DNA of 32,694 bases. Source: Deltaproteobacteria bacterium (GTDB lineage: Bacteria > Desulfobacterota > QYQD01). Shown here in pieces: positions 29,627-31,659 of the stretch. The notes below the pieces were generated by a model, which saw only the letters and a program-made list of their open reading frames with translations, was not told where the DNA came from and searched no databases. Where the stretch lies: assembly GCA_007280345.1 (NCBI GenBank), contig QYQD01000149.1:1-32694 (forward strand). The letters run 5' to 3'. Every line of letters begins with the position of its first letter. The first letter of the stretch is position 1. The translations under genes and the position numbers were made by a program.

Positions 29627-30061
29627 CGAGTGGAATACCCCTTTCGTGACACCCCGTGTCTTCCGGATGTCCGGATTTTTTCCTATTATGGGAAGCTTGT
29701 TTGATAAGTTTATGTTTTTTGGAAGTACTCAGGTTATCAGGTTCGCAGTCCGGGATTGGGTACATTGCGCTTTTTATCTGGGGTTAATGTGCCGGTTACG
29801 TGCCTAATACATTTAAACCGTTCACTCTTTACCGCTCGTTAACCTTGAACCGTTAACCTTGGAACTTTGAACCTGAGTAGTCACCGTTTTTTACGTTTTT
29901 TATGAATCATTATAGGGACGATATCGCTTTGTGGGGCGTTGACGGGAGGTTGTTTCTTCCGTTGCATAACACCCATCCGCCTTCTATCCAATCGCTTGTG
30001 CAATACTGAGGGAGTTTACTCCTTTTACACTCTTTTCCAAATCAAAAGAAAAGCAATGTAA
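29627..30061. other. Gene-free stretch upstream of the exported-protein operon
   Basis: I see no supported gene. A small hairpin CCGG-ATGT-CCGG followed by ATTTTTT lies near 29667-29684 (plus strand). The stretch includes the heptamer array listed separately and grades into the intron fragment at about 30062. Short open frames here have no family-like sequence. Confidence 0.6.
29815..29872. repeat. Degenerate heptamer array
   Basis: Five good 7-base units (GTTAACC, TTGAACC, GTTAACC, TTGGAAC, TTTGAAC) run from 29838 to 29872, with weaker units to the left. The core AACC differs from the GCT-led arrays near the riboflavin genes. Confidence 0.65.
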
Positions 30062-30232
30062 GAAACAACGTTCCTCTTGCTCCCTCTCTGTACGTCGCCC
30101 CGCACTTTTGGATTAGACTTCCTTCAGACCCCACCTCACGATGACGCCCTTGTCCTTCTACTAGCCTTCGGCTCCGCTAAAACCTGGCTCGGGGACTTTC
30201 ACCCTGATAGTCCTATGCCATGCCCAGCACAC
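30062..30232 (-). mobile_element. 5' fragment of a group II intron (domain I)
   Basis: Read on the minus strand, the sequence starts GTGTGCTGGGCATGGC at 30232 (the GUGYG 5' splice motif), then has GGGTGAAAGTCCCC (30204 to 30191), AAGGGCGTCATCGTGAGG, TCTGAAGGAAGTC (30128 to 30116) and CGACGTACAGAG, in the order found in domain I of bacterial group II introns. No open frame for the maturase follows, and the similarity fades after about 170 bases, so it is a truncated copy. A plus-strand open frame here (LDFLQTPPHDDAL...) is only the antisense of this RNA. Recognised from memory of intron sequences. Confidence 0.7.
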
Positions 30233-30236
30233 GCTG

Positions 30237-30293
30237 CGGTTAACCAGCGCGCGGTTAGCGTGTCCGGTTGAACCGCTGGTTAGCCGTTTTTTT
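30237..30293. repeat. attC-like or terminator-like hairpin at the 3' end of the TIR-like gene
   Basis: CGGTTAACCAGCG (30237-30249) pairs with CGCTGGTTAGCCG (30274-30286) over 13 positions with one G-T pair and a 24-base loop; seven T follow on the plus strand. On the minus strand it reads GGCTAAC-CAGCG ... CGCTG-GTTAACC, with the stop codon of the TIR-like gene inside GGCTAAC, and it ends five bases before the group II intron start. Group IIC introns insert next to such hairpins (terminators or integron attC sites). At 48 bases, without the usual unpaired spacer, it is an imperfect attC. Confidence 0.5.
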
Positions 30294-31236
30294 CTCGGAA
30301 ACCGTGCTGCCTCTCCCCCTTCAGCCGGAACACCGCTTCAATGTTTCCTTTAATTATTGTCTCGAGGCGTTGGAAGCATTCCCTATATGCCGCAATACCT
30401 CGGCCATAGGGGTCTGCAACGTCGCCGGAGGAGCCGAAAAACGCAGAAGAGAGATGCGCTTTGCCCCGAAACTGCGCGGGTATCCCCGAAAGAAGTTTTT
30501 CGTCCATTGGCAGAATCACATCAGCACGCGCAAGTAACGGGAAAGTCGCCCGGACTGTCCTGTGCTTGGCAGCATCGAGGCCGAGGCGCTCCTTGATCAC
30601 CTGCTGCGCTTCTGGAGTTATAAAGGCTTTCGTTTGCTCGATAAGCCCCGCAGACATGGGGACGATAGTGCGATCCTGCCCACCGAGATGCTGCCTTGTG
30701 ATCACGTTAGCCATGGCGCATCGACAGGTTCCTCCCGTACTTACATAGAGAACAAGGACATCGTCCTTTTCTATTCTGACGTCGAAATTGTCCGTAAGAC
30801 TTGAGAATACAAACTCACTCAGGAATCGAGGAATATCCTGCTCAAGCTGTTCATACCCATCGGAGTTATCTTCATAAATGAGACAACGATAGACGCGAAG
30901 GTCAAACGGGATGTCCGCCTCACGTTGTGTGAGGATGATCACGTTCTTCCTCAGGGCATGGGCAAGCCCTAGTTCGTACATTACGTTGGGATTCCGTCCA
31001 GTAATATCAGCTATGATCACGTTGCTTTCAGTAACACCCCGCCAGATATCCGCGAGAATGTTGCTTCCATATAGGTCGTCCGCCCGAATAGCCTTCATTC
31101 CGAAACGCTCGACAATCCTTTTGACGTGCTTTTGCCATATTCTGTCTGACCAAGACTCACCAAACGGCATTAATACGAAGCACTGGTCCTCCTTGACCGT
31201 CACGGGTTGCACCTCTTGATTGCCTTGGACGATCAC
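30280..31236 (-). CDS. Fusion of a TIR-like/deoxyribosyltransferase-like domain with an inactive LMW protein tyrosine phosphatase
   Basis: 318 residues from a GTG with AAAGGAG ten bases upstream; an ATG 14 codons earlier (31278) is possible but lies five bases from a TATAAT. Residues 18-121 (CFVLMPFGESW, RADDLYGSNILADIW, ESNVIIADITGRNPNVMYELGLAHALRKNVIILT) match the TIR-like / nucleoside 2-deoxyribosyltransferase superfamily, with E88 of YELG as the probable catalytic Glu; such domains cleave N-glycosidic bonds and many serve phage defence. Residues 160-305 are a LMW-PTP: P-loop VLYVSTGGTCRCAMA, SAG strand, ADVILPMDE, and DPYG with D275. The nucleophilic Cys is Ser166 (codon AGT at 30739-30741); Arg172 is kept. 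Confidence 0.8.
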   Translation of the reverse strand: MIVQGNQEVQPVTVKEDQCFVLMPFGESWSDRIWQKHVKRIVERFGMKAIRADDLYGSNILADIWRGVTESNVIIADITGRNPNVMYELGLAHALRKNVIILTQREADIPFDLRVYRCLIYEDNSDGYEQLEQDIPRFLSEFVFSSLTDNFDVRIEKDDVLVLYVSTGGTCRCAMANVITRQHLGGQDRTIVPMSAGLIEQTKAFITPEAQQVIKERLGLDAAKHRTVRATFPLLARADVILPMDEKLLSGIPAQFRGKAHLSSAFFGSSGDVADPYGRGIAAYRECFQRLETIIKGNIEAVFRLKGERQHGFREKNG

Positions 31237-31269
31237 TTCTGCCCTGCTCCTTTCACGTGCAGTTTGAAC

Positions 31270-31289
31270 GGCTAACATTATATATTATA
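31270..31289 (-). promoter_or_regulatory. -10 box and integron-like core site before the TIR-like gene
   Basis: On the minus strand TATAAT (31289 to 31284) is followed by GTTAGCC (31276 to 31270), which fits the integron core GTTRRRY and is the exact complement of GGCTAAC at the gene's 3' end. The predicted transcript start falls at the core site, 40 bases before the GTG start. No good -35 is seen. Confidence 0.4.
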
Positions 31290-31659
31290 TCGACTCTATT
31301 TTTTTTCATCGGGATCTGCATGTGAAGATAATCATATAAGAATTTGCTGAATAAGACAATAAGATAACATCTATTTAAATATTCGGTGGATAGGGTTGAT
31401 AGGACAAAAAACAACATCGGCTTCTCAATCGAGAAAAGTCTACTTTTTGTTGAAAATATCAATATTATGTCGGCTCGACATAAGTACGGCAATTTATTAT
31501 CTGGAAGCGCAGTGGCCTGCGCCCGGTCCCTTATGTAGATTATTTTAATGTCATTTTATTGTACTATACAGAGTATGGTGTTATTGTGGATTAAAGCATG
31601 CATAATATTCGATGCCTTGTAATCGGCATGCTCAGGCGATCATATAGATAGAGATAATC
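31290..31659. other. AT-rich gap between the TIR-like gene and the YdjM-like gene
   Basis: No gene supported. It is clearly more AT-rich than its surroundings. A perfect 6-bp hairpin GCGCAG-TGGC-CTGCGC lies at 31507-31522, without a T-tract. The divergent promoters of the two flanking genes presumably lie here. Confidence 0.55.

Follow-up and report, generated by a model that had tools for sequence, protein, structure and literature searches.

A truncated group IIC intron behind an integron attC site in a deltaproteobacterial genome

The window, by which we mean the whole stretch of DNA analysed, comprises 32,694 nucleotides of contig QYQD01000149.1 from a Deltaproteobacteria bacterium. Read on the minus strand, the locus of interest consists of an attI-like leader, a cassette gene, a hairpin at the end of that gene, the beginning of a group IIC intron and a small repeat element standing where the intron should continue. 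The features are as follows.

31274-31516, minus strand: attI-like leader, ending ..TATAATATATAATG^TT at the cassette junction; it has matches in the genus, most of which diverge after GTT
30280-31278, minus strand: cassette gene whose attC was hit, 332 amino acids; Pfam PF01451 and PADLOC TIR effector profile, stop codon inside R''
30233-30285, minus strand: attC site, 5' part; attC architecture of 12 bp, hairpin z -3.2
30285-30279, minus strand: attC R'' box GGCTAAC, containing the TAA stop of the cassette gene
30276-30264, minus strand: attC L'', with an extrahelical C at 30270
30247-30236, minus strand: attC L'
30235-30233, minus strand: attC spacer up to the intron
30088-30232, minus strand: group IIC intron relic, the first 145 nt of domain I, with its 5' end GTGTG at 30232; RF02001, sharp homology edges, 75-79% identity to full-length plasmid introns over the retained part
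30077-30271, plus strand: antisense open frame of 64 amino acids, not a gene
29934-30087, no strand assigned: small inverted-repeat (MITE-like) element standing in for the remainder of the intron; inverted repeats 29944-29965 and 30053-30074, separate copies elsewhere, no Rfam signal

The minus strand from 30232 to 30088 is the truncated 5' end of a group IIC intron lying behind a hairpin. Its GTGTG start fits the GTGYG 5' end of this class, and the two domain I blocks named in the original prediction, GGTGAAAGTCCC (30203-30192) and CTGAAGGAAGTC (30127-30116), are both present. The covariance search that the prediction had offered as its possible refutation came out positive for group II domain I: RF02001 (group-II-D1D4-3, gathering score 32) gave 41.8 bits over 30145-29986 in the full Rfam scan, and the 58 nt of 30145-30088 scanned alone gave 41.5 bits (E 1.8e-7). 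The first of these alignments crosses 29986-30087, and that stretch was ruled out as intron by separate scans of the two halves, 29880-30087 alone giving no Rfam intron signal, and by independent copies of the repeat. An apparent reverse transcriptase start in the same stretch, MQRKKQPP, likewise belongs to the repeat element. The homology edges are sharp across loci, starting at 30232 and ending at 30088, and at more than ten loci in other genomes homology begins exactly at GTGTG. The interval first proposed, 30062-30232, was thus right at its intron start, but its remainder beyond 30088 is the repeat element. Full-length relatives extend about 1.7 kb further, which makes the window copy a stub of 145 nt; the EBS1 region is gone, and so is the class C reverse transcriptase expected in domain IV of a group IIC intron. 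Domains V and VI and the 3' splice site are also absent (no RF00029 match on contig C194) and, as they are missing by truncation, we class the element as a relic. It can neither splice nor move. The antisense frame had been suspected of being explained by the intron RNA rather than being a gene, and this is borne out: its first 53 codons show 64-67% identity to the reverse complement of introns annotated on plasmids, a strand to which no gene is assigned there, and the frame is most readily accounted for as the ribozyme read on its opposite strand.

The truncation was made by the repeat element, which is about 150 bp long with 22-nt inverted ends (29944-30074). Separate copies are found elsewhere in this genome (contig C74) and in four genomes of the same genus (G001-G004); it is short, carries terminal inverted repeats and has several dispersed copies, as expected of a MITE. 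An additional short repeat (GTTCAAAGTTCCAAGGTTAACGG...) at 29790-29895 of the window recurs many times in each of the five genomes of the genus.

The 13-bp hairpin predicted before the intron is real (a 13-nt inverted repeat, 30237-30249 and 30274-30286, 92%), with a gap to GTGTG of four bases measured from the repeat arm instead of the five first claimed. We conclude that this hairpin is more than an arbitrary inverted repeat: it is the attC site of an integron cassette. The inverted repeat overlaps the attC pairing, in which the stem GCGGTT-C-AACCGG + CTGGTTAACCGC forms 6+6 bp with one unpaired C, although the isolated strand folds with a slightly different pairing. The R'' box agrees with the consensus at six of seven positions. 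Among 3018 GT positions on both strands of the window, the architecture occurs at one place only (in two adjacent registers), and none of 3000 dinucleotide shuffles reaches it. The R' core has been lost together with the 3' end of the intron. The site lies at the end of the cassette, where an integron cassette carries its attC. The cassette gene encodes a low-molecular-weight phosphatase-like domain (PF01451, E 1.4e-12), and its N-terminal half shows weak nucleoside deoxyribosyltransferase/TIR-like similarity (PADLOC TIR effector profile, E 1.1e-10).

Homologues in the same genus, in a betaproteobacterium and on class 1 integron plasmids lie mostly behind an attC, in sense orientation and exactly at GT^TRRRY. 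We compared 14 non-plasmid intron 5' ends, the window included. The 5' exon ends in CGT at 11 of them, the exceptions being the window, C178 and G132_C3 (GTGT). The surviving 3' ends read CCCGAT, in one case TCCGAT, with a T after it, and GTT is restored when the exons are joined; at G003_C3b, the R' reconstructed in this way, GTTATGC, pairs at all seven positions with R'' GCATAAC. A strict attC search covering 13 of the 14 sites and three plasmid copies was positive at all three plasmid copies and at six of the 13 (window, G003_C3b, G001_C10, G132, Beta and C23, in the last of which the opposite arm carries the extrahelical base). Four loci (G004_C5, G001_C6, G003_C3a and G003_C17) show no significant hairpin within the 62 nt before the intron, and the attC is therefore demonstrated at a part of the copies rather than at every one. 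Sense insertion at GT^TRRRY of R' is seen directly in those relatives that keep their 3' ends, whereas the window retains the 5' side only and its GT is ambiguous. The window junction, GCAGC|GTGTG, lacks 2 nt when set against the rule CGT|GTGTG, and C178 has the same phase. One GT unit has probably been lost (GCGTGTGTGC to GCGTGTGC), slippage in (GT)n being the simplest reading; alternatively, the phase of insertion may vary at the window and C178, as also at G132_C3 with its GTGT. As the GT expected before the intron is missing in the window, its exact insertion phase rests on an assumed slip of 2 nt.

The type of intron is already known, because intact sense-oriented relatives sit in plasmid class 1 integrons; the window holds a decayed member in an unusual genomic setting. 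The full-length plasmid homologues are 1838-1840 nt long, carry an ltrA gene and lie in sense to the cassettes behind aadA1, aadA2 and aac(6')-Ib4, with boundaries ..AAGCGT|GTGTG (or GGCGT, AACGT) and CCTATCCCGAT|TAGATGC. These introns (WP_015063576 ltrA; pEC732_IMP14, pOXA436 and pPp47) agree with the window in 5' end, position in the attC core and orientation; they differ in possessing the reverse transcriptase gene and domains V and VI, whereas the window keeps 145 nt. The attC-targeting lineage of the resistance plasmids therefore also occurs, in the same sense orientation, in environmental Thermodesulfobacteriota and a betaproteobacterium. A phage collection gave no match to the intron and viral contigs gave no exact match to its pattern.

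Canonical IIC-attC introns are found in the bottom strand, at R'', antisense to the cassettes (PMC7923331). That the window relic is one of these is barely credible to us: the subclass and the GT/T position within the core are identical, and the S.ma.I2 type shares the attC target and insertion point with the window lineage, but the window element runs in the same direction as the gene and its attC has the extrahelical base in the 5' arm, which places the insertion in the top strand at R' and on the opposite side of the canonical arrangement in strand, box and orientation. One top-strand exception, a group IIC intron in an attC of Enterobacter cloacae, is described second-hand in PMC7923331 (Rodriguez-Martinez et al. 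2012); going by that description, it resembles the window in orientation and in strand.

Target choice in this family appears to be written in a stretch of domain I that we take to be EBS1 from its position relative to known IIC introns. Copies with an intact domain I have GGCACGTGAC or GGCACGTAAC at this position, and the ACG in it is complementary to CGT at the exon end; the comparison of exon-binding site and exon suggested in the original prediction thus works in the relatives, the window copy having lost the region concerned. The group IIC introns of G010, which have a domain I homologous to that of the window, lie behind typical terminators with T-tracts and have GGCAAATGAT instead, whose AAA pairs with TTT. 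EBS1 and IBS1 thus covary between attC copies (ACG/CGT, GGCACGTGAC) and terminator copies (AAA/TTT, GGCAAATGAT), a pattern that supports recognition of the target by hairpin plus EBS1. The G010 sister introns raise the question of whether the window relic is an ordinary group IIC intron inserted past the terminator of the phosphatase-like gene, its likeness to attC being accidental. The hairpin does follow directly 3' of the stop codon. On the minus strand, however, no T-tract follows it, its attC architecture is unique in the window, the closest relatives mostly target attC with EBS1 ACG, and an attI-like leader precedes the cassette gene. We regard a terminator target as quite unlikely.

We suggest that the window element is very probably the dead 5' remnant of a IIC lineage that inserts sense-wise into the attC core (GT^TRRRY) of cassettes. 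The intact ancestor would have recognised the folded attC hairpin and, through EBS1 (ACG), the last exon bases CGT, and would have inserted by reverse splicing into the R' box, between its GT and the following T. Nothing is left in the window copy of the EBS1 region, of domains II-VI, of the reverse transcriptase or of the 3' exon, and after position 145 of the intron comes the inverted-repeat element. What the fragment is, its attC, its sense orientation, the repeat and the point of insertion in relatives are observed; how the ancestor inserted and in what order it decayed are inferred.

The leader upstream of the cassette gene ties the relic to an integron-like setting. This 240-nt sequence has 5-15 matches per genome in the genus (L105-L123), most of which diverge directly after GTT; most copies end in ..ATAATG^TT and are then followed by a different gene. 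An attC finder applied to 19 leader loci gave one match, the finder being strict and the flanks short, so that this result counts neither for nor against cassettes there; cassettes were supported when the G001/G003 platform was read directly. At an orthologous locus of G001 and G003, the flanks are 97.5% and 95.8% identical and the species-specific cassettes between them, lying between ..ATAATG and TTAGCAGTC.., are unrelated. This is the trace that cassettes leave when they insert at an attI-like site, here with no adjacent integrase gene, and the leader itself looks like one of a set of dispersed attI sites of that kind. We also observed an orthologous platform in several species (L175 4940-5873, L176 4632-6887 and L177) that bears wholly different cassettes between flanks ending in G^TT on both sides. 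There is no integron integrase gene at the window. Within the genus, G003 alone was found to have an intact one, at another place in its genome (L162 5502-6839 on G003:C4, 377 bits), and no homologue of the leader lies beside it. On C112 (L033 10435-10548), a C-terminal fragment of an integron integrase pseudogene, with stops, directly adjoins a copy of the leader; a domain V occurs near this fragment, antisense to cassette-like genes. We found no account of multiple or dispersed attI sites in the literature searched; the use of non-classical attG sites by IntI is already known.

The relic is one of a whole set of shrunken IIC introns that the genus carries in integron-like gene arrays. Both ends could be paired in six cases, of 72, 72, 164, 177, 188 and 219 nt, and all retain both ends with no complete domain V; a second 188-nt element with an unrelated interior is also present. 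A 616-nt case on C23 consists of two intron pieces with a cassette between them. Outside the genus, G022 has a 448-nt copy that lacks an open reading frame and keeps a domain V. The platforms that hold the two 72-nt copies are orthologous, so a single ancestral insertion may account for both. G004_C85 and G003_C3b have a deletion junction in common at different attC sites on different platforms with unrelated flanks, which is poorly explained by decay alone; recombination between copies is possible. Several of the mini-introns (L034, L076, L077 and L079) carry a palindromic insert, CCTGCCCCGGACATGATCCGGG, at the same position of domain I, which marks a subfamily.

Elements this small invite comparison with the group III introns of Euglena chloroplasts, which consist of a 5' end derived from domain I and a domain VI, have no domain V and span about 70-220 nt (PMC4424553). 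The likeness, which is one of layout and size, extends to the shrunken relatives; it excludes the window copy, which lacks the 3' part. It seems quite unlikely that the core-less mini-introns of 72-219 nt, with no reverse transcriptase, are still spliced or copied in trans as a bacterial parallel to group III. The simpler account of the data is decay combined with recombination among the copies. As for the window copy itself, it is highly improbable that it is a functional small RNA, or a mini-intron that factors acting in trans still splice or mobilise: other loci of the genus do keep both intron ends at a size comparable to that of the Euglena introns, but the window copy has no 3' end, domain V or domain VI in the flank read, and the five genomes of the genus yielded no reverse transcriptase of the intron family. 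The group II reverse transcriptases that the genus does have were considered as autonomous partners and rejected, as none carries the 5' end of the family. One reverse transcriptase (L009) adjoins a repeated NNNRTNSNNN-like sequence and, on this neighbouring sequence, resembles a diversity-generating retroelement.

By itself the relic is ordinary; it leads to a genus with attI-like leaders at many chromosomal sites, species-specific cassettes and mini-introns. In such a setting one could test whether a single integrase, working in trans, exchanges cassettes at numerous attI sites, and whether anything besides decay lets core-less introns persist.

Two further observations concern the same genomes. 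In two species (L083 and L096), intron pieces are followed by a short cassette whose product is a lysine-rich peptide (MSKGMDSKKK...). Seven contigs (L012-L018) end within identical 3' ends of another group II intron with the same domain V score, which is a recent multi-copy intron collapsed in the assembly.
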